Assembly: GCF_017592825.1 (NCBI RefSeq)
Contig: NZ_JAGFMD010000001.1
Coordinates: 62,001-126,000, forward strand
Origin: Roseivirga sp. E12
Lineage (GTDB): Bacteria > Bacteroidota > Bacteroidia > Cytophagales > Cyclobacteriaceae
Length of the DNA stretch: 64,000 nt
Reading direction: 5' to 3'
A program made the position numbers and the translations under genes. Under the pieces are notes generated by a model. That model was not told where the DNA came from and searched no databases. It worked only from the letters and a program-made list of their open reading frames with translations. How positions within the stretch are numbered: the first letter of the stretch is position 1; each line of letters begins with the position of its first letter. Of the stretch, positions 1-54,068 are shown in pieces.

Positions 1-666
1 ATTCATAGTCAGGTTGAAAGTCTTACCATCTAGCATATCTTTGGAGAGTCGCGTTTTTCTACTTGAGCCTGGATCGTGAACATAAAGCTCTTCTGCGTAG
101 TCACCATCGGCATGCAGATGTGTTGAGAGTACACCACGGTCCTCATCAGTTGCCTGAAGAATAGCTGCACCAGCACCATCGGCAAAGATTACAGAACTAG
201 AACGTCCTTCCGTAGACTTATCCAGAGCTGAGGATTGAATCTCTGCACCAACCACGAGAACAGTTTTGTACATCCCGGTCTTAATAAATTGATCAGCCAC
301 AGAGAGTGCATATATAAAGCCAGAACAGGCATTTCTTATGTCTAGTGCTCCTATGCCTTGCAAGCCGAGTTCCCTTTGTAATAAGACGCCAGAACCAGGG
401 AAGAAGTAGTCGGGAGTTATGGTAGCGAAAACAATGAATTCAATGTCCTTAATCTCTATACCTGCGCGGTCAGCAGCCATTTTTGTAGCTCTGGTTGCCA
501 TGTTCGAGACGGTATCTTTATCTGGGTTAAACCACCTACGTGCTTCAATTCCTGTCCTTTCTACAATCCAATCATTGGTAGTATCCATGATCTTCTCTAG
601 GTCGGCATTGGTTACCACATTTTCTGGGACATAGTGTCCAATTCCGGTTATCCTTGACTTTTTCAC
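1..666 (-). CDS. 3-oxoacyl-ACP synthase III (FabH-like), C-terminus off the left edge
   Basis: Partial gene: 222 codons run leftward and stay open at base 1. The translation is a typical KAS III N-terminal half: GIGHYVPENVVTN near residue 8, NDWIVERTGIEAR near 31 and the active-site cysteine C114 in DIRNACSGF. The family averages about 330 residues, so about 110 residues carrying the catalytic His and Asn lie outside the window. KAS III enzymes condense acyl-CoA with malonyl-ACP to start fatty acid synthesis; a secondary-metabolite or fatty-acid paralogue cannot be excluded because no fab neighbour is visible. The start is taken as GTG at 666, preceded by AAGGA; a TTG further upstream is in frame. 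It is transcribed away from the lipoprotein gene to its right. Confidence 0.88.
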   Translation of the reverse strand, partial: MKKSRITGIGHYVPENVVTNADLEKIMDTTNDWIVERTGIEARRWFNPDKDTVSNMATRATKMAADRAGIEIKDIEFIVFATITPDYFFPGSGVLLQRELGLQGIGALDIRNACSGFIYALSVADQFIKTGMYKTVLVVGAEIQSSALDKSTEGRSSSVIFADGAGAAILQATDEDRGVLSTHLHADGDYAEELYVHDPGSSRKTRLSKDMLDGKTFNLTMN

Positions 667-874
667 TCCTTGGCTTTTAGGGTTCTCTTTGACTGGCTTA
701 ATCCGATTCCATAGGTTTGGCCTGTACAAGTAGTATTGGAGTCGAAGTTAAAGAATTCTGATGAATTCGATTGCCAGTTTTTTGAACTCGATTTTGTGAA
801 TTGATGAATTAAGAAAATCTATGTAACCTGTTTCCTATCTCTGCGTAACAGTGTGGATAGGGTTTTTTCAACGA

Positions 875-1627
875 ATGAAAAATTATAGTCTGTACTGTCT
901 GATTTTTGTCGGACTGGTGTGTTTGGAGAGTTGTGGAGATGATGAGCAGAAGTTATCTGCAGATCAGATAATCCAGAAGGCAGTTGAACGCCATGGGGGA
1001 GAAAAGTACAACAATATGGAAGTTGAGTTTGACTTCCGAAAGCGTCATTTCAGAGCCAAAATCAGCAAAGGTCAGTATGTTTATGAACGCAGCTTTCGTA
1101 GTAAGGAAGGTTGGGTTACTGACGTTTGGTCGAACGACAAGTTCAAAAGAATGATCGATGAAAAAGAGATCAAACTTGACCAAGAAAACCTTAGAACCTA
1201 TCGAACCGCAACCAATTCTGTAATCTATTTTGCCTTATTGCCCTTTAATCTAGATGACCCTGTTGTCAACCGTCAACTAATGCGATCGGTTGAGATCAAT
1301 GATAAGGCCTATTATAAGGTTGAGATGACTTATGGCCAAAATGGCGGAGGAGAAGATTTTGAAGATGTCTATGTCTATTGGATCGATAAGGAGGATTTTA
1401 CAATTGATTACCTGGCCTATAGCTTCAATATCAATGGTGGAGGAGTACGATTTAGAGAAGCCTATAACCAACGGGAGGTAAATGGAATCCGCTTTCAGGA
1501 CTATCGAAACTATACGATCGACAAAGACTTTCCGGCTCAGGAGTTGGATTACGCTTTTCAGACCAAACAGCTGAGGTTACTCTCTGAAATTAAGCTTGAA
1601 AATATCAAGGTAGGCTTAGTTGAATAA
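875..1627 (+). CDS. lipoprotein, DUF6503-like
   Basis: About 250 residues. A short signal (KNYSLYCLIFVGLVCLESC) ends in a lipobox-like LESC, so it is probably an outer-membrane or periplasmic lipoprotein. The body begins with IIQKAVERHGG and has an FDFRKRHF segment and many Tyr/Asp residues, resembling the Bacteroidota DUF6503 family of periplasmic beta-rich proteins of unknown function (recalled from family appearance, not searched). ATG at 875 is chosen because it places a charged residue directly before the hydrophobic core; a GTG at 851 would add eight residues. It converges on the SRAP-like gene, with the two 3' ends overlapping by 12 bases (1616-1627). No enzyme motif is visible. Confidence 0.75.
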   Translation: MKNYSLYCLIFVGLVCLESCGDDEQKLSADQIIQKAVERHGGEKYNNMEVEFDFRKRHFRAKISKGQYVYERSFRSKEGWVTDVWSNDKFKRMIDEKEIKLDQENLRTYRTATNSVIYFALLPFNLDDPVVNRQLMRSVEINDKAYYKVEMTYGQNGGGEDFEDVYVYWIDKEDFTIDYLAYSFNINGGGVRFREAYNQREVNGIRFQDYRNYTIDKDFPAQELDYAFQTKQLRLLSEIKLENIKVGLVE

Positions 1628-2314
1628 AGTCAAATTGCCAAACTGATTGGCAGGAGGTACCTTTTCCCACAATGCTTTATTATTGAAATTAGGATCTGAC
1701 AGCTTCGGATTGATAGTATGTTGAAAGATATGCTCTTCACTATAAGGCTTGATGAAATCATGAATACTTTCAGAAGTATTTGATTCATTTAGCCATTCCA
1801 ACAACAAGTCATCATTTAAAATAGCAGGCATTCTTTCGCTAACCTTGATCACTTCGGAAGAAGCGGGTGTGGTAATCATCATAAAAGTGTGAACAGTGTC
1901 GCCAGCTTCAGTTTCAAAAGAGTCCCAAAGTCCCGCAATAGCAAAAACCGCATTGTTCTCTAGATGAAATCGATAAGGCACTCTTTCCTTTTTGGCTATC
2001 TCCTTCCAACTATAAAAACTGTCCGCAACGATGACGCAACGCTGCATTTGTAATGACTTCTTTAAGCTTGGTTTAGTGAGAATGTTCTCCACTGGGGCAT
2101 AAAGTAGCTTGTCACTTACCCCTCTGCTTTTTGAAAAAGAAGGGTTAATTCCCCAGTAAAAATGAGATAAGTGTTCAGGGTTCTCACTGGTAATTACCGG
2201 TAGCACATCACTTGGTTGAGCGTTAAAGGTTGGTATATAGTCGTCTGCAACTTCGGTTTGAAAGTGTTCAGCAATGACCGATCCTTGAGCCGCAATGGAG
2301 TAGTTGATCTGCAT
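1616..2314 (-). CDS. SRAP (YedK/HMCES-fold) protein lacking all catalytic residues
   Basis: 232 residues, the normal length for a SOS-response-associated peptidase-fold protein. Family landmarks are present in order: FYWGINP (52-58), RCVIVADSFYSW (92-103), AIAGLWDSF (125-133), ITTPAS (147-152) and RMPAIL (161-166). Active SRAP proteins use Cys2 to crosslink abasic DNA, helped by an Asn, Glu and His (Cys2, Asn75, Glu105, His160 in E. coli YedK). Here residue 2 is Gln, the NAR(V/S)ET Asn is Tyr72 (LLYAPVEN), the FYEW Glu is Ser102 (FYSW) and the HDRxP His is Ser159 (VSERMP). A TAA lies two codons before the ATG, so no upstream MCG start exists. The fold looks intact but the known chemistry cannot occur; inferred to be a pseudoenzyme or a DNA-binding adaptor. 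Confidence 0.85.
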   Translation of the reverse strand: MQINYSIAAQGSVIAEHFQTEVADDYIPTFNAQPSDVLPVITSENPEHLSHFYWGINPSFSKSRGVSDKLLYAPVENILTKPSLKKSLQMQRCVIVADSFYSWKEIAKKERVPYRFHLENNAVFAIAGLWDSFETEAGDTVHTFMMITTPASSEVIKVSERMPAILNDDLLLEWLNESNTSESIHDFIKPYSEEHIFQHTINPKLSDPNFNNKALWEKVPPANQFGNLTLFN

Positions 2315-2504
2315 GAATTAGTTTTGAGAAAGTTACTCCAAGTTGACTAAAAAAGCTAATCGTACTTGTCATCATATTGATGCTGAGGGATGCAACAATC
2401 GTTTGCAGAAAAAGGGTGAAAAGAGGAGTACAGAATAGCGTATCTTTAATTTGAATATAGAGCTATTTAAAACTATTTTTGGTGCTCAAATTTTAGAGAG
2501 ATTT

Positions 2505-4148
2505 ATGGCTGAAATTGTAAGAATGCCGAAAATGAGCGATACCATGGAAGAAGGGGTAATCGCGGTTTGGCATAAAAAGGTAGGAGATAAGGTAGATTCA
2601 GGTGAGTTGATGGCCGAGATAGAGACAGACAAGGCTACAATGGATTATGAATCTTACAACGAAGGGACAGTACTCTATTTAGGTGCTACTGAAGGAGATG
2701 CCGTCCAGGTAGATGGTATTTTGGCCATCGTTGGAGAAGCTGGTGAAGATTATCAAGCATTGCTGAATGGTGGTGCTGTTGCTACCAGCGAACCTAAAGA
2801 AGAAGTTGAAACAGCTGCTCCTAGTGCAGCTCCAAGCGAGAAGATTGACACAAGTGCCATAAACGCTGAAATTGTAAGAATGCCGAAAATGAGTGATACC
2901 ATGGAAGAAGGTACCATCTCGGCTTGGCACAAAAAAGTTGGTGATACAGTGGAGTCAGGCGAATTAATGGCTGATGTAGATACTGACAAAGCCACAATGG
3001 AATATGAGTCCTATAATGACGGTACCGTACTTTATTTAGGTGCTGCTGAAGGAGAAGCTGTTAAAGTGGATGGAATTCTGGCGATCGTAGGTGAGCCAGG
3101 TGCCGACTACGAAACTCTAATTAAGGCTGAAGGACAAGGTGGGGCAGAAGAAGCTCCTGCACCACAAGTAGAAGCTGCTCCCGCAGCGGCCGCACCCACG
3201 ACTAGTTCGGCTCCTGCGTCAAGTACTCCAGCTCCTGCACCGGCAGTAGCAACATCTTCTAATGGCAGAGTAAAGGCTTCTCCATTGGCTAAGCGTCTAG
3301 CTTCAGAAAAAGGAATTGACATCAGCCAAGTACCAGGAAGTGGCGAAGGAGGAAGAATTGTAAAAAGAGATGTTGAAGGCTTTGTTCCTGCTGCGGCTCC
3401 TGCGAGCCAACCAGCAGTAGCTAATGATGCTCCAGCACCAGTCCAACTGCCAACTGTCGTTGGTGAAGAAAGCTTCGAAGAAGTGAAGCTAAGTCAAATG
3501 CGCAAAGTGATTGCACGAAGACTTGGCGAGAGCAAATTTGCTGCACCACACTTCTACCTGACCATGGAAATTAACATGGACAAGGCAATAGAAGCACGTA
3601 AGAGCATGAATGAGGTGTCTCCTGTGAAAATATCATTCAATGATATGGTCATCAAAGCAGCAGCAGTTGCCTTAAGAAAGCACCCTGGTGTTAATTCATC
3701 ATGGTTAGAAGATAGAATTAGAACTAACCACCATGTCCATATTGGTGTGGCTGTAGCAGTTGACGAAGGCTTGCTAGTGCCTGTGGTTAAGTTTGCAGAC
3801 AACAAACCATTATCACATATCTCTGCAGAGGTTAAGGACCTTGGAGGAAAGGCCAAGAGCAAGAAGTTGCAACCTCAAGAAATGGAAGGCAATACCTTCA
3901 CCATTTCCAACTTGGGAATGTTCGGTATTGAAGAGTTCACGGCCATTATCAACCCGCCTGATGCTTGTATTATGGCAGTGGGAGGAATCAAGCAAGCTGC
4001 CATTGTAAAAGATGGACAGTTGGCCATTGGTAATATGATGAAAGTCACCATGTCATGTGATCATAGGGTAGTAGACGGTGCAGTAGGTTCGGCATTTTTG
4101 CAAACCTTCAAATCACTACTTGAAGATCCAGTAAGGATTTTGGTTTAG
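2505..4148 (+). CDS. pdhC: pyruvate dehydrogenase complex E2, dihydrolipoyl acetyltransferase
   Basis: 547 residues from ATG 2505; a TTG at 2451 would add an 18-residue tail that is not family-like. Two lipoyl domains occupy about 1-80 and 120-200, with lipoylated lysines expected at K43 (ETDKATM) and K162 (DTDKATM). Ala/Pro-rich linkers follow, then a peripheral subunit-binding domain at about 257-295 (ASPLAKRLASEKGID) and the catalytic domain at about 320-547 with the signature CDHRVVDGA near 517-525. It transfers acetyl from lipoamide to CoA in the cytosolic pyruvate dehydrogenase complex. E1 and E3 genes are not in the window. The two lipoyl domains are nearly the same sequence. A strong terminator follows directly. 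Confidence 0.95.
   Translation: MAEIVRMPKMSDTMEEGVIAVWHKKVGDKVDSGELMAEIETDKATMDYESYNEGTVLYLGATEGDAVQVDGILAIVGEAGEDYQALLNGGAVATSEPKEEVETAAPSAAPSEKIDTSAINAEIVRMPKMSDTMEEGTISAWHKKVGDTVESGELMADVDTDKATMEYESYNDGTVLYLGAAEGEAVKVDGILAIVGEPGADYETLIKAEGQGGAEEAPAPQVEAAPAAAAPTTSSAPASSTPAPAPAVATSSNGRVKASPLAKRLASEKGIDISQVPGSGEGGRIVKRDVEGFVPAAAPASQPAVANDAPAPVQLPTVVGEESFEEVKLSQMRKVIARRLGESKFAAPHFYLTMEINMDKAIEARKSMNEVSPVKISFNDMVIKAAAVALRKHPGVNSSWLEDRIRTNHHVHIGVAVAVDEGLLVPVVKFADNKPLSHISAEVKDLGGKAKSKKLQPQEMEGNTFTISNLGMFGIEEFTAIINPPDACIMAVGGIKQAAIVKDGQLAIGNMMKVTMSCDHRVVDGAVGSAFLQTFKSLLEDPVRILV
2508..2911 (+). repeat. direct repeat inside pdhC (start of each lipoyl domain)
   Basis: Bases 2508-2554 and 2865-2911 match over 47 positions with one difference, 357 bases (119 codons) apart. 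The proteins stay very similar through the rest of both domains (MPKMSDTMEEG, ESGELMA-type, LYLGA, VDGILAIVGE), while codon differences accumulate outside the first 47 bases. Confidence 0.9.
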
Positions 4149-4208: not shown

Positions 4209-4748
4209 ATGACTAAGATTAGATCGACTACAGTACTAGCAGTAAAACATAATGGTTCGGTATCCATCGGTGCTGATGGCCAGGCTACAATGGGTAATAC
4301 GGTTGCCAAGAGCAATGTGAAGAAGATAAGGAAGCTGCAAGACGGAAAGGTCGTGACAGGATTTGCTGGTTCTACGGCAGATGCTTTTACGTTATTAGAG
4401 CGATTTGATGAGAAACTTAGCGCCTACGGTGGTAATATGAAGAGGGCAGCGATTGAGCTGGCCAAAGACTGGAGAACAGACAGGTATCTTCGTAAGCTTG
4501 AATCAATGCTAATTGCCGCTGATAAAGATGATGTGCTTATAATTTCCGGAACAGGGGATGTCATTGAGCCAGATAATGGTATTGCAGCTATTGGTTCAGG
4601 AAGCATGTATGCTCAGGCTGCAGCTCAAGCTTTGCTCAAACATGCAACACAATTAGATAGTCAACAAATTGTAGACGAGAGTCTTAAAATTGCTGCTGAC
4701 ATATGCATCTACACCAACCATAATTTGATTATCGAGAGAATTTCGTAA
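4209..4748 (+). CDS. hslV: HslV (ClpQ) ATP-dependent protease peptidase subunit
   Basis: 179 residues, typical length. [10 protein letters not shown] followed by [13 protein letters not shown] matches the N-terminal catalytic region of HslV; the nucleophile should be Thr7 or Thr8, exposed after removal of a short propeptide (MTKIRS). [16 protein letters not shown] and the C-terminal [11 protein letters not shown] are also family-typical. HslV forms a dodecameric peptidase driven by the HslU unfoldase in the cytosol. hslU is not adjacent, so the pair must be encoded apart. The gene starts 16 bases after the pdhC terminator, so its promoter would have to sit within or very near that hairpin. 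Confidence 0.93.
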
Positions 4749-8391: not shown

Positions 8392-9345
8392 TTATTTCCT
8401 ACCAATAACTTTCTGCGCGGCCTTCACAATGTTGGCTGCATCAATTCCATACTTGGTCATTAATTCCGCTGGTTTACCACTTTCTCCAAATGAGTCATTA
8501 ACAGCAACCATTTCTAGAGGAGCAGGGTGATTCATTGCCAAAGTCTGTGCAACACTATCACCTAAGCCACCATTCATTTGATGCTCTTCAGCAGTAACTA
8601 CGCAACCTGTTTTAGCAACAGAAGCTAGAATGGCTTCAGTGTCCAAGGGCTTGATAGTATGGATGTTGATTACCTCGGCACTAATGCCTTGCTCAGCCAA
8701 AGCAGCTTCCGCTTCGATGGCCTCCCAGACCAAATGGCCTGTAGCGAAGATGGTCACATCAGAACCTTCAATCATTTTGATGGCCTTTCCAATTTCGAAC
8801 TTCTGATCAGCAGGAGTGAAGATCGGAACCGATGGTCTGCCGAATCGAAGATAAACTGGGCCGTGATGATCTGCTATCGCAATCGTAGCGGCTTTTGTCT
8901 GGTTGTAATCACAAGGGTTAATGACCACCATATTTGGTAGCATCTTCATCATGCCAATGTCTTCAAGGATCTGGTGTGTAGCACCATCCTCTCCAAGCGT
9001 TAAACCTGCATGAGAAGCACAAATCTTCACATTCTTCTCAGAATACGCGATCGACTGTCTGATTTGATCATAAACACGACCTGTTGAGAAGTTGGCAAAA
9101 GTGCCTGTGAAAGGAATCTTACCACCGATGGTCATACCCGCAGCAATACCCATCATATTCGCTTCAGCGATTCCGATTTGAAAGAATCTTTCAGGATTTT
9201 CCTTAATAAATTCCTGCATTTTAAGCGATCCAACCAAGTCAGCACAAAGTGCCACTACATCAGGATTGGTTCTACCGAGCTCGGTCAAACCAGCACCAAA
9301 ACCAGAACGCGTATCTTTCTTTTCTGTATAAGTAAATTTCGTCAT
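8392..9345 (-). CDS. transketolase, C-terminal subunit
   Basis: 317 residues from ATG 9345 (the open frame extends 17 codons further, into the upstream gene's stop region). It contains the pyrimidine-binding and C-terminal domains of a split transketolase: [13 protein letters not shown] at the start, the [17 protein letters not shown] motif with the catalytic Glu that activates thiamine diphosphate, and [15 protein letters not shown]. It pairs with the upstream N-terminal half; together they transfer two-carbon units in the non-oxidative pentose phosphate pathway. The two genes are 10 bases apart. It is the last gene of a leftward operon. Confidence 0.93.
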
Positions 9346-9355
9346 CGTTTCTAGT

Positions 9356-10204
9356 TTAGTAGTCTCCCAAAGTTTCTTCCAATTGACCAAGTGCATCAGC
9401 TAGTTGCTCATCATTCGGAGCCACGCCATGCCATTTGTGAGTGCCTACCATAAAGTCGACACCATAGCCCATTGCAGTAGTCATCAAGTTCAAGATCGGC
9501 TTGCCCTGACCAGTCAAGGCCTTTGCTTCTTCGAGACTAGCCACAACCGAAGCCATGTCATTGCCATTGCTTTCGATTACTGTCCAGCCAAATGCCTCAA
9601 ACTTGGCCTTGAGATCACCTAAAGACATTACCTCGTCTGTAGGGCCATCGATCTGCTGACCGTTATAATCTACTGTTGCGATCAGGTTATCTACTTTACA
9701 GTGAGACGCATACATTGCAGCTTCCCAAACCTGGCCTTCTTCTAGTTCACCATCACCCATAAGCGCGAAGATTAAACTATCATCACCGTTTAATTTCTTA
9801 GCCTGGGCTGCACCGCAAGCCACAGATAGACCTTGTCCTAGTGAGCCAGAAGCCACACGAATGCCTTCCAAACCTTCTTCAGTAGCCGGATGACCTTGAA
9901 GACGTGAATTGATCTTTCTAAATGTGGCTAATTCTGATACTTCGAAATAACCAGCCCTGGCCAGTACACTGTACCAAACTGGAGAGATATGTCCATTGGA
10001 AAGAAAGAAAATGTCTTCGCCTCTTCCGTCCATGTCAAAACCATCATTGCGGTTCATAACGTGGAAGTAAAGGGCTACTAAAAAGTCGGTACAGCCAAGC
10101 GATCCACCAGGGTGGCCAGAGTTGACTGCATGAACCATGCGCACAATATCACGTCTTACTTGTGAAGCGATGCGCTCAAGTTCTGCTGTTGTTGGTTTGC
10201 TCAC
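9356..10204 (-). CDS. transketolase, N-terminal (TPP-binding) subunit
   Basis: 282 residues, the usual size of the split N-terminal half. [21 protein letters not shown] near residue 26, [12 protein letters not shown] near 117 and the thiamine-diphosphate/Mg motif [12 protein letters not shown] near 150, followed by DYNGQQIDG, are all classic. It binds the diphosphate end of TPP and the metal; the active site is completed by the adjacent C-terminal subunit. Split transketolases are common in Bacteroidota and archaea and are sometimes confused with 1-deoxyxylulose-5-phosphate synthase, but the separate two-gene layout and these motifs favour transketolase. Confidence 0.94.
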
Positions 10205-33654: not shown

Positions 33655-36600
33655 ATGAGAAAGTTTATATCAACTTTGATAATGATTGCTTGCTTGGGAG
33701 TGAGTATGCAGTCGTATGGGCAATCGTGTAACGATGTGCCGGTTATTAATAGCTTTGAACCCAATACTGGGTTTATTGGCAGTATAGTAGAAATTTTTGG
33801 AGCAAATTTTGACGCTACAAACCTGGAAAACAATCAGGTTTATTTTGGTGCTACTGAGGCGGTTGTGATCTCTGCTTCATTTGGAAAGCTTGAAGTAATC
33901 GTACCAGTGGGAGCTTCCACTGCACCGATATCTGTTAAAAATCAATGTGATCTAACAGCCTATTCTAAGGTAGCGTTTAATGGCATATTCTGCCCGACAC
34001 CAATCGATAATCAAACTTATCAAAATACAGCGTTTGAATTGAATGGTATCTTCGGAGCGTATAATATGATCTCCCAGGATATGGATTTAGATGGTAGACC
34101 AGATGTGGTATCATCCGGACTGAATGGAGGAATTACAATTGCCAAAAACAATAGTACACCAGGTAACCTAAGTTTCAGTGCATATAATTTTTCAACTGCT
34201 ACGAGATCTGTTTTTGCAGCGGATTTTGACGGTGATGGACTTAAAGACTTGGTGACCAACGCAAGCGTGTTGAGAAATACCAGTACAGGCCCTGGTAATT
34301 TTGGCTTGGCTGTAGCTCATAGCTCACAGGGGATATCTGGTTACCAAGTTGCAGCCGGAGACTTCAACAATGATGGGAAAGTAGATATTGTTGGAGAGAA
34401 TGGAAATATAGCCTGGATAGCGTTTAACACAAGTACCGGACCTGGCCACTTTAGTTTCGGTCCTAGACAGGTCATTGGTAATGTTGGAAGTCGTTGTACA
34501 GGAATTCAAGTTGCAGATGTTGATGGAGATGGTCGAACTGACTTTATCGCCTCTCAAGGGGGAGCCAATCGAGCCGTGAGTGTTAGGAATACAATAACGC
34601 CAGGAAGCATGACTGCCTCATTCGAAGCACCTGAATTTTGGTCATCAGATTCTGATTGGTCAGATGGAAGAGGAACGTTCCCTTACAGGGCGCAGATAGC
34701 CGACTTTGACAAAGATGGTAAGATAGATTTTACATCTTGTAATTATCTGGGAAATACCAACGTGGCGATATGGAGAAATATTTCAACTGTAGGTGATATT
34801 GTTTTTGCACCAACAGTGAATATCCCATCACCAACAAGGAACTACAGAATCGGTGTTGGAGATGTCGATGGTGATGGATTTCCTGATGTGGTGACTAAGT
34901 CTCTTGGCGTCAATGTATTTTCTGTATATAAGAATACTAGTGGAGGGCCTGGAGCGCCTACTTTTGCCTCAAGAGTTGATTACACTTCATCTTCTCGTGC
35001 AGAAGTCTCAGGTATTGTAATCGGTGATTTGGACGGTGACTTTGTTCCAGATATTGCGACTTCAGGAATAAGCAGTAGAACTATAAGGTTTCATAGGAAT
35101 ACGAGTGCTCAGGTTGATTCAGATCCTCCAACGGCCCTCACTAAAAATATCACTGTCGCATTAAATCCAAGTGGTACTGTGTCCATCATTCCAGCAGATG
35201 TGGATAATGGTTCTAGTGATGCCTGTGGACTTGATAGACTTGAACTTGATATCACCAGTTTTACTTGTAATGACATAGGAGAAAATGAAGTTATCCTTAC
35301 AGTATTTGATAACGCTGGTAATCAGACTTCGGCACCGGCAATAGTTAATGTTCAACCAGCGGCTATTATCGTTACGGGTCAAACCACTGTTTGTCAAGGT
35401 GAAACAATTTCAATGACAGCTAATGATGGGGATTCCTATCAATGGCAAAAGGATGGAGTGGATATTCCAGGTGCTACTGACCAGATTTACGTAGCTACCG
35501 AATCAGGAGCATATACTGTGACTGTGCAAAATGCCGGAGGCTGCTCCGGTACTTCATTGCCAACAGACCTAACGGTAAATGATAATCCAACTGTAGATGT
35601 ATTCCCTACTGGGACGACATATATCTGCCCTCCGAGCGGAACTGCCGTCTTAACCGCTTCTCAATCATCAATTTACCAATGGATGAAGGATGGTGTAGAT
35701 ATTCCTAATGCCACACAGCAAATTTATACAGCTACTGAAGTAGGGAACTACAGCGTCAGGGTTATTGATTTGTTTGGTTGTTCTGCTGAGTCTGATGAGG
35801 TGATCGTTGCAGCTAACCCACCAGAAATTGATGTAGTAGAGGGTGCCACTGCCATAACAAGTGGTAGTTTGAGTGATTATGGTGATGTTTTCCCGAATGC
35901 CGATAACGTGAAAACCTTTACTATTAACAATACAGGATCTAATGTGCTTGATATCTCTCAAATTTCTGTAAACGGAACGGATGCTCAATATTTTAATGTA
36001 GTAGGAGCACCAAGTTCCGTGGGTGCAGGCTCGTCTGCTGACTTCGATTTGGTGTTTAATGCTCCAAATATTACTTCTTACAGTGCTTCTGTTACTATTG
36101 TCAGCAATGATTGCGATGAAGGCAACATCACTTTTGATATTGCCGCGGAAATCACCTGTGTAGCAGCAGAGTTCTCCGAGGTGCCAGCGGATATATCTGT
36201 TAATACAGAAGAAGAAAGCTGTGCCGCAACTGTCAACTATCAGGTAGGCGCAAATGGCAATCCAATTCCTGATATTAGCTATAGTTTCACAGGAGCTACA
36301 TCGGGTAGTGGAGATGGAACGGGAGCTGGTGCTTCTTTTAACTTGGGAATTACCAATGTAACGCTGACTGTGACAAATGCTTGTGGGAATGATACCCATA
36401 CATTTACTGTCACGGTAATAGATAATGAAGACCCTGTTCTGTCCGATGTTCCTTCAGATATAACGGTAAACTCGCAGGATACGGATTGTTCTGAGATTGT
36501 GAACTGGACAGCACCAGGTGCTTCTGATAATTGTTCAGTAAGCCTTACAAGTTCACATAATCCAGGAGATGTTTTCCCTGTAGGCACTACAACTGTGACC

Positions 36601-37755
36601 TATACAGCCACTGATGGTAGTGGTAATGCTGTTAGTGCTAGTTTCAATGTTACAGTTGTACCTATTCCAATGGAAATAACAATGATACCTGCCGTCTTCA
36701 ATTCGGTTCAGAGTTTCAACGTGAGTTGTAATGGGGCTACAGACGGTAGTATTGATGCAACAGTGACCGGAGGATGTACTCCTTATACATATAGCTGGAG
36801 TAATGGTGATAATGTTGAAGATCCAACTGGTTTGGGTGCAGGAACTTATACCTTGACTGTAACCGATGCAAATGGCAGTTCAATTAATCAGACTGTTACA
36901 CTTACTGAGCCAGAACCTCTTCAGGCAAGTATCAATATGTCTCCTGAAAACCCAGTACCGACATATGGTGCAGATCATACTATTTATTTGGGTTATGGCA
37001 CTCAAACAGCTCTGTTAATAGCATCAGCTGATGGGGGTAATAACACTTATAGCTATAGTTGGACTGGCGCTGATATCTTAAATGGTGGAAGTTCTGAATC
37101 TATTGAGGTTGGTCCTCAAAGTACTAGTACATACGTAGTTGTGGTTTCAGATGAGAACGGCTGCTCTACTACTGAGAGCTTTACTGTGAACGTTGTAGAC
37201 ATAAGATGTTTACACAGAGATCGCATTAAGGGTAAAGGCAAAGGTAGTAAAGGTAACTATGCTGACCCTGAGACTATGGATAAATGGGATGGTAAGAAAG
37301 TTCACATTTGTCATAAAGGAAGAACCCTTTGTATCAGTGTAAATGCTGTGGCTGATCATTTAATGGAGCATGGAGATGCTTTAGGCACCTGTGGTACCAA
37401 TGTTATGGCAATGGCATCGAATAATCAAGAATCAGGATTTGCTGAAATAATTGAGGTAGGATCAGAAACTGAGACTAGTGATTTGAATGAGTTTAAGCTT
37501 AAAATCAATACTTATCCAAACCCGGCCTCTGATTTTATCAAAATCAATTTCTCTTCAGCTTTGGAAGGTGATGTGAAGTTAGTCTTGCTCGATGTAAATG
37601 GGATCGTTAAGGCTACTCCTTTTGAGGGGCGCCTTGAAGCCAACCAGGAAAAAGAGGTTGAACTTAACACCAAGCCATTTAAAACAGGTGTTTATGTGAT
37701 ACGCTTGATGACACCTATGGGTATTAAGAGTACTAAACTTTTGATTAAACAGTAA
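33655..37755 (+). CDS. large multi-domain T9SS-secreted adhesin-like protein
   Basis: 1366 residues. In order: signal peptide (to about 22); IPT/TIG domain (about 28-112); seven FG-GAP/VCBS calcium motifs of DxDxDG type at about 142, 190, 236, 288, 350, 403 and 458, enough for a seven-bladed beta-propeller; two Ig-like modules (YQWQKDGVDIPGAT, YQWMKDGVDIPNAT); a choice-of-anchor-D-like module (KTFTINNTGSNVLDIS); HYR modules (DNEDPVLSDVPSDITVN); SprB-type repeat (SCNGATDGSIDATVTGGC); a Cys/His module near 1217-1252 (HICHKG, HLMEHGDALGTC); and a C-terminal T9SS sorting domain from about 1283 (YPNPASDFIKINF). It is exported and probably fixed at the cell surface for adhesion or glycan binding. 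Confidence 0.92.
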   Translation: MRKFISTLIMIACLGVSMQSYGQSCNDVPVINSFEPNTGFIGSIVEIFGANFDATNLENNQVYFGATEAVVISASFGKLEVIVPVGASTAPISVKNQCDLTAYSKVAFNGIFCPTPIDNQTYQNTAFELNGIFGAYNMISQDMDLDGRPDVVSSGLNGGITIAKNNSTPGNLSFSAYNFSTATRSVFAADFDGDGLKDLVTNASVLRNTSTGPGNFGLAVAHSSQGISGYQVAAGDFNNDGKVDIVGENGNIAWIAFNTSTGPGHFSFGPRQVIGNVGSRCTGIQVADVDGDGRTDFIASQGGANRAVSVRNTITPGSMTASFEAPEFWSSDSDWSDGRGTFPYRAQIADFDKDGKIDFTSCNYLGNTNVAIWRNISTVGDIVFAPTVNIPSPTRNYRIGVGDVDGDGFPDVVTKSLGVNVFSVYKNTSGGPGAPTFASRVDYTSSSRAEVSGIVIGDLDGDFVPDIATSGISSRTIRFHRNTSAQVDSDPPTALTKNITVALNPSGTVSIIPADVDNGSSDACGLDRLELDITSFTCNDIGENEVILTVFDNAGNQTSAPAIVNVQPAAIIVTGQTTVCQGETISMTANDGDSYQWQKDGVDIPGATDQIYVATESGAYTVTVQNAGGCSGTSLPTDLTVNDNPTVDVFPTGTTYICPPSGTAVLTASQSSIYQWMKDGVDIPNATQQIYTATEVGNYSVRVIDLFGCSAESDEVIVAANPPEIDVVEGATAITSGSLSDYGDVFPNADNVKTFTINNTGSNVLDISQISVNGTDAQYFNVVGAPSSVGAGSSADFDLVFNAPNITSYSASVTIVSNDCDEGNITFDIAAEITCVAAEFSEVPADISVNTEEESCAATVNYQVGANGNPIPDISYSFTGATSGSGDGTGAGASFNLGITNVTLTVTNACGNDTHTFTVTVIDNEDPVLSDVPSDITVNSQDTDCSEIVNWTAPGASDNCSVSLTSSHNPGDVFPVGTTTVTYTATDGSGNAVSASFNVTVVPIPMEITMIPAVFNSVQSFNVSCNGATDGSIDATVTGGCTPYTYSWSNGDNVEDPTGLGAGTYTLTVTDANGSSINQTVTLTEPEPLQASINMSPENPVPTYGADHTIYLGYGTQTALLIASADGGNNTYSYSWTGADILNGGSSESIEVGPQSTSTYVVVVSDENGCSTTESFTVNVVDIRCLHRDRIKGKGKGSKGNYADPETMDKWDGKKVHICHKGRTLCISVNAVADHLMEHGDALGTCGTNVMAMASNNQESGFAEIIEVGSETETSDLNEFKLKINTYPNPASDFIKINFSSALEGDVKLVLLDVNGIVKATPFEGRLEANQEKEVELNTKPFKTGVYVIRLMTPMGIKSTKLLIKQ

Positions 37756-49145: not shown

Positions 49146-51308
49146 CTAGCCCATCGCAATGTCTTGCTTGGTAAACGGGATCTTATACACTCTTCTGCCC
49201 GTTGCCCCTGCAATGGCATTAGCCAATGCTCCACCTGCTGGTGGGAGAGAAGGCTCACCTAATCCGGTAGGATCGTTGAGGCTTTCTACAAAGTGAACAT
49301 CGACTTTAGGAGCTTCCTTCGTTCTGATCAACCTGAACTTATCGAAGTTGGCTGCTTGAGGTGCACCATCTACAAAAGCAAAGTCGCCATACATCGCATG
49401 TCCTATTCCATCTACCACACCACCTTGGATCTGGTTGATAGCAGCTTCAGGGTTGATGACTATACCACAGTCAACTGCGGCCGTCATCTTTGTGATTTTG
49501 GGCTGACCATTTTCAGTGGTTACATCTGCCACTTCTGCCACATAGGTATTATGTGAATAGTAACAGCTGAACCCTTTGCTTACACCAGCTTCTGGATTAC
49601 TCCAGTTACCTTTTTCTGCAGCAAGCTTAATTACGCCAATCATCTTTTCAGGTTCATAGTCTATACTGCCTACAGGATTAGACTTAGCCCTTTCAAGAAT
49701 ATCCAATCTTACCTGAACAGCGTCCACATTCATTTCCTTGGATAATTCATCGAAGAAACTTTGCTCTGCAATAGCAAGGAAGTTGGTGATTGGTGCACGC
49801 CATGCTCCTGTAGTGATATTACTATTCAGGTTATTAGACTCGACTTTGTAGTTTTCGATTCCTCCAGCAGGGAACCAATTCTCACGGGTAGCATTTCCCA
49901 TCTGAATCCCTGCACCTGTTAGGTGATAGCCTGTAATTTTGCCATCCTTATAAGCAGCTCTGAACTTGTACTTTGATGCTGGTCTGTACGTACCTGCCAT
50001 CATATCATCTTCTCGAGAGAACTGCACCTTAACCGGTTTTCTGATTTTGTCAGAAATGGCAGCTGCCTCTAGGGCAAAGTCTCCATAAAGCCTTCGGCCA
50101 AAGCCACCACCCATACGTGTCATTTCACAGGTAATGGTAGATCGCTCTCTTTTTAACAAACCAGCTACTCTTCCTTGCGTCCAATCCGGTGTCTGCGTTG
50201 GTCCTGCCAATAGCACTTTGTCTTCTGTTACATTAGCGAAGAAGTTCATTGGCTCCAATGTGTTGTGTGGTAAGAAAGGTGCTTCGTAAGTTCTTTCAAG
50301 TGTTCCATCAGCTTGCGCGAAAGCTTTCTTGATGTCACCATCCGATCGCTTTAGTGATTCGCTATTCGAAACGTTGAGTAATCTGTTTAACTCACGATCG
50401 TGGTTCGTTGTGCTTTCTAGCCTCGAGGATCGTTCCCATTCTGCCTGCAAGGCTTTTTTACCTTTAAAGGCAGCCCAAGTATTTGTGGCGATAACGGCAA
50501 TTTTCTCGCCTCTGATCTCTCGTTGGTCGGGTCTTTCATTGTCGTCAAAAGTAATTACGTCCAGAACACCATTTACTTTTCTTGCTTCGCTGTCATCAAA
50601 TGATTTTAGCTTGGTGCCAAAAGCGGGTGGTCTCATTACAGCAGCATATACCATTCCATCCGCAGTATAGTCAACTCCGAAAAGTGGTTTACCTGTAACA
50701 ATGTCATCCATATCGACATTGGTCTTACTCTTGCCAATAATTTTAAAGGTCTTTGGATCTTTCAGAGGCACCTCTTCAGGAATTGTTTCACCAACAGCCT
50801 TCGAAGCAAGCTCTCCATAGGAAAGCTTTTTACGGCCATTCATTACAAATCCATTCTCAGTTGTGAGTCCTGCAGCATCTACTCCCCATTCTTTGGCAGC
50901 GGTATTAATCATCAACTGCCTTGTTGTAGCGCCAACCATTCGTAGACTCGCCCATCCTTGACGGATAGACTGACTACCACCAGCCACTTGTCTTTGAAAC
51001 GTGGTGCTGTTTAATGGGGCTTGCTTTACAATTACATCTTCCCAAGCAATGTCAAGCTCTTCAGCAATGATCATCGGCATGGATGTCTTTACATTCTGTC
51101 CAATCTCTGGGTTAGGGGACATGATGGTCACTTGACCATTGTCTGCAATCGAAAGGAATGCATTCATATCGAACCATTCTTTTGGTGCAGCCCTTTCCGC
51201 TTCCATTGGGTTACAGGCCCATGAAAAGCCTATCATTAAACCACCACCCGCTAGAGCAGAGGCCTTCAAGAATGATCGTCTGTTGACTTGTGTTTTTACT
51301 ATCGTCAT
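49146..51308 (-). CDS. xanthine dehydrogenase-family large subunit (copy A), Tat-exported
   Basis: 720 residues. A twin-arginine signal (NRRSFLKASALAGGGLMIGF) with R10-R11 precedes a Cys at 32. The body has the molybdopterin-binding domains of aldehyde-oxidase/isoquinoline-1-oxidoreductase-type large subunits, ending with the catalytic-Glu motif GLGEPSLPPAGG. It oxidises an aldehyde or N-heterocycle in the periplasm using molybdenum cofactor; the substrate is unknown. The partner iron-sulfur subunit is encoded 18 bases upstream. A second copy of both genes lies beside it. Confidence 0.9.
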   Translation of the reverse strand: MTIVKTQVNRRSFLKASALAGGGLMIGFSWACNPMEAERAAPKEWFDMNAFLSIADNGQVTIMSPNPEIGQNVKTSMPMIIAEELDIAWEDVIVKQAPLNSTTFQRQVAGGSQSIRQGWASLRMVGATTRQLMINTAAKEWGVDAAGLTTENGFVMNGRKKLSYGELASKAVGETIPEEVPLKDPKTFKIIGKSKTNVDMDDIVTGKPLFGVDYTADGMVYAAVMRPPAFGTKLKSFDDSEARKVNGVLDVITFDDNERPDQREIRGEKIAVIATNTWAAFKGKKALQAEWERSSRLESTTNHDRELNRLLNVSNSESLKRSDGDIKKAFAQADGTLERTYEAPFLPHNTLEPMNFFANVTEDKVLLAGPTQTPDWTQGRVAGLLKRERSTITCEMTRMGGGFGRRLYGDFALEAAAISDKIRKPVKVQFSREDDMMAGTYRPASKYKFRAAYKDGKITGYHLTGAGIQMGNATRENWFPAGGIENYKVESNNLNSNITTGAWRAPITNFLAIAEQSFFDELSKEMNVDAVQVRLDILERAKSNPVGSIDYEPEKMIGVIKLAAEKGNWSNPEAGVSKGFSCYYSHNTYVAEVADVTTENGQPKITKMTAAVDCGIVINPEAAINQIQGGVVDGIGHAMYGDFAFVDGAPQAANFDKFRLIRTKEAPKVDVHFVESLNDPTGLGEPSLPPAGGALANAIAGATGRRVYKIPFTKQDIAMG

Positions 51309-51326
51309 CTTTTCAATCTTTAAAGG

Positions 51327-51785
51327 TTATAGTTGCTCAGCAGCCGTGGTAATGGCAGCCTTGATTTTGTTATAAGTTCCACAGCGGCAAATATTGCCAT
51401 GTGTTGCATCTTCAATTTCTTGATAAGAAGGATTTGAGTTCTTATTAAGGAGTGCAGCAGCATTCATGATTTGACCTGCCTGGCAATAGCCACACTGGGG
51501 TACATCATGTTGCTTCCAAGCCTCTTGCAAAGGATGGTCTCCTTTTTCTGAAAGCCCTTCGATGGTCGTAATGTCATTTTCACCTACTGCCGACACAGGT
51601 ATCTGGCAAGACCTTACCGCATTGCCATTAAGGTGTACTGTACATGCGCCACATTGGCCAATGCCACAGCCAAATTTCGTTCCTTTCATATCGAGCTCAT
51701 CTCGAAGTACCCAGAGCATGGGCGTATCCGCGCCTGCTTCGACCGAGCGCGTCTGTCCGTTGATTTTTATATTATATGATGCCAT
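51327..51785 (-). CDS. [2Fe-2S] subunit of the molybdoenzyme (copy A)
   Basis: 152 residues with two iron-sulfur clusters: plant-ferredoxin type C40, C45, C48, C60 ([16 protein letters not shown]) and the four-helix type C98, C101, C133, C135 ([18 protein letters not shown]). It passes electrons from the molybdenum site. There is no signal peptide, so it must be exported by riding with the Tat-bearing large subunit. 18 bases upstream of that gene. Confidence 0.93.
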   Translation of the reverse strand: MASYNIKINGQTRSVEAGADTPMLWVLRDELDMKGTKFGCGIGQCGACTVHLNGNAVRSCQIPVSAVGENDITTIEGLSEKGDHPLQEAWKQHDVPQCGYCQAGQIMNAAALLNKNSNPSYQEIEDATHGNICRCGTYNKIKAAITTAAEQL

Positions 51786-51899
51786 ATGTTTGGATTGATT
51801 CTGCTTTAAAATTTAATATACTTCTATTCATCTCAAGTTCATAGGTGAAAAGGAGTAACGGTTCTATTGCTAATTAATCCGTTAGCTCCTAAATCCCTT

Positions 51900-54068
51900 T
51901 TAAACCAAATTGTGTTTTTTGAGCGGTAGCTCTCTTATTCTTTGTCCTGTAACCTGATAAACCGCATTAGTCAAAGCGGGAAACAGGATAGGGTAGGATG
52001 GCTCTCCTAAGCCTTGAGGAGACTCTTCACTGGCGACAAAATGAACATCTACTTCTGGAGAATCTGTTATTCTTAGTTTTTCATAACGATCGAAGTTCTG
52101 CCCGATTGGCGCTCCATCTCGTAACTCTAAGGATTCATAAAGGGCAGCACTAATCGCATCTGTGATACCGCCTTGTACTTGTGCATTGGCGCCAATTGGA
52201 TTGATTACTCTTCCGCAATCGACTGCGACATTCACTTTATCTACTTTTACTTTTCCATCTACAAGACTAGCATCCACAATACATGCGACATAGCTGCCGA
52301 AGATCATTTGCGCAGCAAAACCCTGAGACTTACCACCACCCCAATTCGCCTTCTCTCTTACCAATTCGATCACATTTCTTAGGCGTACTGTATTATAGGT
52401 TGGGCCACCATGGTCTTCATAAGGCATATCTTTGTCTTCGGTTCCAATCAGACCAAGCTGGAACTCAATGGGATCCATTCCAACCTTTTCGGCAAGTTCA
52501 TCCATGAAGCCTTGATATGCATATGTAGTAGCGTTGACTCCAGGGGTTCTTAAGGCACCCACTGGAATATTGGACTTGAGTGGGCTGTAGGTGACTTTAA
52601 AATTGGGAATCATACCTGCTGGTTGTTGATCTGGAAAAGCTTCTGTTCCATGAGCAGGTGTAGACTGTCTATAGAGGTAACGGGACGTTGTACATATATT
52701 CACTTCCATGGCCTCAAGATTCTTACCTGTCAAAGCAGCCTTAAAGTGGTAAGCACCTGCCGGACGATAATAATCTGCTAGAAAGTCGGCTTCTCTTGTC
52801 CAAACTAGTTTAACTGGTCTTTCAACCTTTTGAGATATGAGGACCGCCTCGTTTGCGTAGTCATTTAATAGTCGTCTGCCGAATCCTCCTCCAATTCGGG
52901 TGAACTTCATTTGAACTTGCTCTCTAGGAACACCTGTTATATTACTTGCAGATGCTGCTGCACTACCTGGCGTCTGAGTAGGGCCTATTAAAAGAACCTT
53001 GTCCTTTTGTACATCAGCAATGAAATTCATCGGCTCCATTTGGCTATGGCTGATAAAGGGTACATGGTATTTTGCCTCTATCACCTCATCACTATTTCTG
53101 AAAGCATTGCCGACATTTCCTTCATCTTTCAAGACTGTGCCTTTGGAAGACGCTCCTCTATCTAGTGCTCTTCTCAATCGCTCGTTAGAAGAGATAAATC
53201 CCTTAGGCGAATTCCATTCTGCTTTGACAAGTCCTTTTGCTTTAAAAGCTGCCCATTGGTTCTCTGCAACAATAGCAACTCCGCCAAGCCCGTTTCCCGG
53301 GTTGTCTCCTTGGCTTATTTCAAATATGTCAATGACACCCGGTACAGCTTTAGCCTCGGAGTCTTCAATGTTCGCCAGTTTAGAACCAAAGACTTGCGGT
53401 TTCAATACTGTGGCATAGACCATGCCGTCAATCTCTTGGTCAATACCATATAAGGCCTCGCCAGTTACAATCTTCTTTAAGTCAACATCTGGTCGAGACT
53501 TTCCGATGATATTAAATGTCTTAGGGTCTTTTAGAGGTGGATCTTCATTGAGTTCCAGTTGTGCGGCTGCTTCAGCCAAGTGCCCGTAGTGGAGGCGCTT
53601 GCTACCGTGAGTGACAAAGCCGTCTTCTGTTTTACAGTCTAATGGCTGCACTCCCCATTGGTCAGCTGCTGCCCTGACTATAACATCTCTAACCGCAGCT
53701 CCTGCTTTTCTAAGGTTTTCATAATTTGTCTTAACGCCAGTACTTCCTCCTGCAAACTGAGAGCCTAGTCGACTGTCCAGTTCAGCCTGTTCCACAGTGA
53801 CCATCTTCCAAGGAATATCTAGCTCCTCTGCCAATATCATGGGTAGTGATGTTTTTACACCTTGCCCAATGTCTGGGTTCTTGGCCTTTATCGTTACAGT
53901 GCCGTCTCCATTGATGAGAATGAATGCGTTGATTTCGAGATCTCTAAAATCAGGGTTTTCTGGTAATGTATCGCAGCCTGTCAAGTTGAAGCCTAGCATT
54001 AAGCCGCCACCCGCAATTCCTGTGAGTTTAAGAAAGCCTCTACGCGATGTTGTCAATTGCTCTTTCAT
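51900..54068 (-). CDS. xanthine dehydrogenase-family large subunit (copy B), Tat lipoprotein
   Basis: 722 residues. A twin-arginine signal ([19 protein letters not shown]) ends in a good lipobox, NLTGC with C32, so this copy may be a Tat-exported lipoprotein. The molybdopterin domains and the catalytic-Glu motif [14 protein letters not shown] are present. Its start overlaps the stop of its iron-sulfur subunit gene by four bases (ATGA). The two large subunits are full-length paralogues with clearly diverged sequence, so the duplication is old and substrates may differ. Confidence 0.9.

Follow-up and report, generated by a model that had tools for sequence, protein, structure and literature searches.

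A SRAP-fold protein of Roseivirga that lacks the crosslinking residues is retained at a conserved locus with a conserved C-terminal tail

Introduction

SRAP proteins (Pfam PF02586) are known as self-sacrificing crosslinkers of abasic (AP) sites, and the family paper describes their catalytic triad as "absolutely conserved" (PMC3765255; here and below, papers are cited from excerpts of their text). In Escherichia coli YedK the crosslinking nucleophile is Cys2, and the C2A variant cleaves AP DNA instead of crosslinking it (PMC9436759). For human HMCES, a C-terminal motif was suggested to serve in travelling with PCNA (PMC8053108). B. thetaiotaomicron BT_1218 (2f20) was placed among the autocleaved Cys-bearing structures in the 2013 family paper (PMC3765255), and its Asn, Glu and His are seen in our alignment, residue 2 lying outside the aligned part. 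Among the matches listed in the open-licence PMC literature, with subscription papers outside this scope, the excerpts report neither a catalytically dead SRAP lineage nor clamp binding by a bacterial SRAP. Here we describe a gene at positions 1616–2314 (minus strand) of a 64,000-nucleotide stretch, hereafter the window, of the 4.7 Mb genome of Roseivirga sp. E12 (G000). Its product, the window protein, differs from YedK in that all four catalytic residues as well as Arg4 and Arg77 are replaced, and in having a C-terminal tail where YedK has none. "Genus" and "family" below are those of G000; the set holds 19 genomes of the genus.

Results

The window protein, 232 amino acids from an ATG start, matches the Pfam SRAP model with 152 bits (cut-off 27.1) over model positions 5–211 of 214, has a predicted SRAP fold and is positionally orthologous to other SRAPs. 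By descent and fold it is a SRAP, as an earlier note made from the sequence alone had proposed. Alignment with YedK (from NC_000913.3) reproduced the four replacements which that note had listed: Cys2 is Gln2 (codon 2309–2311, minus strand as are all codons given here), Asn75 is Tyr72 (2099–2101), Glu105 is Ser102 (2009–2011) and His160 is Ser159 (1838–1840). In addition, Arg77 is Pro74 (2093–2095), while Arg162 is retained as Arg161 (1832–1834). No other residue of the window protein stands in for the acid at site 102, and the substitute Cys, Glu or His that the earlier note had considered was not found at the site. Cys93 was considered as an alternative nucleophile and rejected, as it is invariant but equally so among intact orthologs. 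Judged from these replacements, the window protein very likely does not crosslink abasic sites stably. Since the residues that define crosslinking SRAPs are missing, neither "abasic-site processing enzyme" nor "peptidase" should be used in annotating it.

All four catalytic residues are absent in 19/19 genus genomes, which excludes a single sequence error. Site 72 is F in nine, Y in eight and M in two; site 102 is D in six, A in six, N in two, C in two and S, T or I in the rest; site 159 is S, T or A. Arg4 is replaced by Asn, Ser or Thr, and Arg77 by Pro, in every member, and Arg161 is retained in 18 (L031 is the exception). All 19 orthologs are 232 amino acids long with zero indels, the other 18 being 55–95% identical to the window protein. 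The window ATG is preceded by in-frame stops 2 and 7 codons upstream, confirming the intact frame and fixed start noted earlier, and in each genus ortholog a stop in frame lies at most 15 codons upstream, with no Met-Cys between stop and start. An alternative start providing Cys2 is therefore excluded, and the YedK alignment across the genus together with the upstream stops rules out a sequencing or start-site error.

The ratio of nonsynonymous to synonymous substitution rates (dN/dS) was 0.016–0.043 in five of ten pairs, the other five giving no dS value; in four of the five computable pairs dS exceeded 1.2, so that only L028/L022 is unsaturated (dS 0.17, ratio 0.032). These values and the full-length frames rule out a pseudogene. 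We also compared column entropies, in window numbering, among intact orthologs (all four catalytic residues kept), genus members and other degenerate orthologs; rows entered the intact set if they ended in LF and one further residue, and the degenerate sets by a length of 228–236 amino acids only. Entropy in the catalytic columns is 0 in intact rows and 1.3 to 3.1 bits in degenerate ones. Steady columns are Asn31, Pro34, Trp54, Gly55, Arg92, Cys93, Asp98, Trp103, Lys104, Lys108, Lys109, Pro113, Arg115, Trp130, Pro163 and Trp174, and in the tail Gln224, Gly226, Leu230 and Phe231. As the mean column entropy is 0.98 bits in the intact set, 1.76 in the other degenerate set and 0.99 in the genus, some of the relaxation in the other degenerate set reflects plain divergence. 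Taken at the level of sequence, gene, locus, fold, length and tail are retained under strong purifying selection despite the loss of the residues, which bears out the earlier proposal that selection maintains the fold without them.

The gene sits between metabolic genes. Its convergent neighbour encodes a DUF6503 protein (851–1627, plus strand), the 3′ ends overlapping by 12 bases, and its divergent neighbour a 2-oxoacid dehydrogenase E2 (2451–4148, plus strand, in the longest reading; ATG at 2505). Further out lie HslV (4209–4748, plus strand) and FabH (beta-ketoacyl-ACP synthase III; 1–588, minus strand, extending beyond the window). The order FabH, DUF6503, SRAP, E2, HslV is found in 18/18 other genus genomes, G012 and G008 having about 1 kb extra between DUF6503 and SRAP. 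Among family loci (7.8 kb or less each), the 22 intact ones include FabH in 21, E2 in 21 and HslV in 18, and the 58 degenerate ones in 23, 8 and 6, respectively. Gene order thus identifies the window gene as the positional ortholog of intact SRAPs and not a stray paralogue. Operon partners were set aside as a functional clue, the neighbours being metabolic.

A SRAP of some kind is present in 211/216 family genomes. From the matches listed we chose 80 family loci, 54 for a low SRAP score and 26 for a high one, and classified 117 orthologs picked by the tail pattern, one per genome; 115 belong to the family and two, both degenerate, do not (G040, G043). All four catalytic residues are kept in 25 of them, three in 4, two in 11, one in 45 and none in 32; because the loci were chosen by SRAP score among the matches listed, the 92/117 degenerate orthologs are no measure of prevalence. 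The orthologs cover 56 genera, 17 with intact members only, 38 with degenerate members only and one (g104) with both. In a tree built without the catalytic columns (86 of 128 rows, after removal of long branches and near-duplicates), degenerate lineages are nested, with good support, among intact ones: G199 next to G020 (99/95), G122 next to its congener G249 (100/98), G021/G105 next to g49/g52 (99/92), and g69 within the intact Cyclobacteriaceae clade (100/99). A single loss, with all degenerate rows in one clade, was rejected by the approximately unbiased test (p-AU 6.02e-8; the group was defined after viewing a first tree), while one clade for the 50 main degenerate rows is compatible with the data (p 0.197). 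This implies at least five losses, provided that there was no reversal and no gene transfer between lineages; the fewest state changes in either direction are six. On this sequence comparison, the crosslinking residues were lost repeatedly across the family.

The losses follow no fixed order, since some orthologs have lost only Cys2 while others (g69, G114) kept Cys2 and lost Glu and His. Asn75, Glu105 and His160 are kept behind an MPGR start in L275:3455-4153 and L118:6001-6699 and behind an MSER start in L254:3453-4151; L257:3504-4205 has the MPGR start and the same three residues, with Arg77 changed to Pro. By analogy with YedK C2A, such Pro and Ser forms at position 2 could be AP lyases. 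Outside the family, Cys, Asn, Glu and His are present in 60/66 class members read; L321, L330, L342 and L349, from other Bacteroidota families, keep Cys, Asn and Glu, with Pro or Gly in place of His160, L346 has Asp for Glu, and L352 aligns poorly. No canonical paralogue was found in G000, where two candidates were scored and one was a SRAP match. Eleven of the 19 genus genomes have one SRAP and eight a second, seven of the latter with Cys, Asn, Glu and His and one with Asp in place of Glu. By match counts, some assemblies being incomplete, 25/58 degenerate family genomes have a single SRAP. What the earlier note had missed is the positional orthology to intact SRAPs, the recurrence throughout the family and the conserved C-terminal tail.

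This tail, QFGNLTLF (residues 224–231; 1622–1645, minus strand), is proposed as a clamp-binding motif. Q224, G226, L230 and F231 are at 100% in both degenerate sets; in the intact set the Leu-Phe conservation arises by construction, because that set was filtered on the LF ending. Ortholog ends read Q-[FHYN]-G-[NSH]-[YLF]-[TSMI]-L-F followed by one or two further residues, with N and T/S the prevailing choices. Since the 117 orthologs were selected by tail, its conservation rests on the 80 family loci fetched, all of which have it, and on rows of 229–243 amino acids, where it is present in 117/122 and the five lacking it are all intact. The tail is kept in intact and degenerate orthologs alike. 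A Q..LF ending also occurs in 25/97 other Bacteroidota SRAPs; canonical or near-canonical SRAPs among them have ends that match the clamp-binding motif exactly or nearly, namely QLSLF (L017), QLDLF (L018, L298, L300) and QLGLF (L060, L333, L339), and other ends include QGSLF (L005, L032, L054, L064, L303). Among 843 non-SRAP open reading frames of the fetched loci the ending was found in two, both DinB, a known clamp client. The enrichment in SRAPs over these background frames has a Fisher p of 3e-24, a value that takes related rows as independent and leaves out, by manual choice, two rows truncated at contig ends; the pattern allowed up to two trailing residues in the background and up to three in SRAPs, although no match needed more than two. 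The DinB of G000 ends in QLTLDF, and three Y-family open reading frames of 356–365 amino acids in family genomes end in QLKLF, QLTLEF and QLSIPF; the 22 longer ones, mostly ImuB-like, have no clamp match.

Two observations on polymerase genes stand apart. In G000:C11:653000-664500 (L384), a 1010-amino-acid second DnaE has just upstream of it a Y-family polymerase that by eye resembles ImuB; this polymerase ends in NPFTGEPPPLLANRRQ and has no clamp-like C-terminus. In genus g95, a dinB ending in QLKLF or QLRLF is found near the degenerate SRAP gene, at distances of 2.3 and 1.2 kb (L214, L216); this proximity holds for two of three g95 loci and for no other locus searched.

Discussion

That the same chromosomal gene repeatedly lost its chemistry while strong selection stays indicates a second, non-catalytic SRAP function. 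The best explanation, which we hold at somewhat less than even confidence, is that the gene is the resident SRAP of the family after loss of abasic-site crosslinking chemistry, kept for a clamp-docked role. We are less sure that this role is non-catalytic and exercised at the replication clamp than of the loss itself. The C-terminal tail would dock the protein on the DnaN sliding clamp, paralleling the proposed C-terminal PCNA-binding motif of human HMCES at forks; HMCES, a proposed PCNA binder, keeps the chemistry, while the window protein would have lost it and its clamp would be DnaN. There the SRAP body may cover template-primer junctions non-covalently, or else compete with, or serve as an adaptor for, further clients of the clamp, DinB among them. 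A broader version, which we consider rather doubtful, is that Bacteroidota SRAPs have a clamp motif, the counterpart of the HMCES-PCNA link, and a catalysis-independent job at the clamp that outlived chemistry lost at least five times, so that a clamp-tethered pseudo-SRAP is the sole SRAP in many genomes. Binding of the tail to DnaN would mean that a SRAP is placed on the replication clamp in bacteria and humans alike. Because one locus holds intact orthologs in some genomes and degenerate ones in others, and some forms have lost only Cys2, these genomes offer a natural experiment in which a non-catalytic function is testable.

A number of observations weigh against this explanation. Published clamp consensus sequences are QL(S/D)LF at C-termini (PMC9690074) or Q-aliphatic-x-[LM]-[FL] (PMC13254535). 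The NLTLF of the window tail has Asn at the Gln of position 1 and Thr in place of Ser/Asp, and the family tail, N-[LYF]-[TS]-L-F, fails the literal consensus because position 1 is Asn; DinB-like clamp-binding proteins share with it the short hydrophobic C-terminal motif and differ at this position and in that the window tail is possibly part of the fold. Residues 221–230 have a mean predicted local distance difference test score (pLDDT) of 86 in the window model, where residues 231–232 have 62, and of 78 in that of an intact ortholog from Belliella; both show single-residue bridges at 222 and 228. Since the tail is folded back in each model at moderate confidence, it may merely pack on its own domain. 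YedK has no tail, nor have L049, L063, L070 and L071, divergent degenerate second copies in family genomes; the Q..LF ending is found in 0/34 non-Bacteroidota SRAPs (LF plus up to three residues in 4/34). The clamp pattern ends only 2/25 Y-family polymerase frames of family genomes, and the neighbouring genes have no replication link. As to the loss of chemistry, an acid persists as Asp at site 102 in 6/19 genus members, and N75A by itself barely impairs YedK, according to an excerpt. Because of the Asn at position 1 and the folded-back tail, we regard binding of the tail to the clamp as a tentative proposal, somewhat under even chances.

Less likely, though the strongest competitor, is that the tail caps the fold structurally and that the retained job is non-covalent shielding of single-stranded DNA or junctions, with neither chemistry nor clamp. 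The partly ordered tail in the models fits this, as do the basic residues R92, K104, K108, K109 and R115, which persist in intact and degenerate sets, Arg161 in 18/19 genus members and Arg4 in 72/73 degenerate rows outside the genus; the loss of Arg4 and Arg77 throughout the genus speaks against it. The mean isoelectric point is also lower in the 19 genus members (5.0) than in the 25 intact orthologs (7.6), but YedK itself has 5.2, which makes global charge a weak sign of lost DNA binding. Of the interpretation given in the earlier note, selection on the fold is supported, while DNA binding is conjectural: the genus has lost Arg4 and Arg77 but mostly kept Arg161.

It is unlikely that the old active-site pocket now holds a small ligand or peptide, in a new role of protein interaction that has nothing to do with DNA. 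The large hydrophobic residue at genus site 72 and the invariant Pro at site 74 suggest a pocket remade rather than drifting; however, genus sites 2 and 102 are variable (1.6 and 2.5 bits), and pocket residues differ between degenerate genera, a poor fit to one shared ligand.

Very improbable is a residual lyase activity, in which the N-terminal amine attacks abasic sites and some lineages are AP lyases instead of crosslinkers. The Cys2-only losers and the lyase activity of YedK C2A favor it, but the window protein also lacks Glu105 and His160, and YedK C2A E105Q is a 25-fold slower lyase than C2A (PMC9436759). The Gln2 of the window protein is moreover expected to keep Met1 on.

We give almost no weight to the view that the gene is a decaying relic or that its sequence or start site is in error: the catalytic columns do vary among degenerate rows, but the frame is intact in every genus genome, dN/dS is low and upstream stops fix the start.

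Additional Observations

A known anti-phage defence system was rejected as an explanation, since a search of PADLOC-DB with the window protein returned 0 families at E 0.1; the protein matches one PHROG of unknown function, phrog_1599. Elsewhere in the window, transketolase is encoded as two overlapping genes at 8392–10204 (minus strand; N half 9356–10204, C half 8392–9396). Two adjoining genes at 49146–54068 (minus strand) each carry molybdopterin cofactor-binding domains, and 33655–37755 (plus strand) encodes a 1366-amino-acid protein with FG-GAP, HYR and SprB repeats that is probably secreted and adhesin-like.
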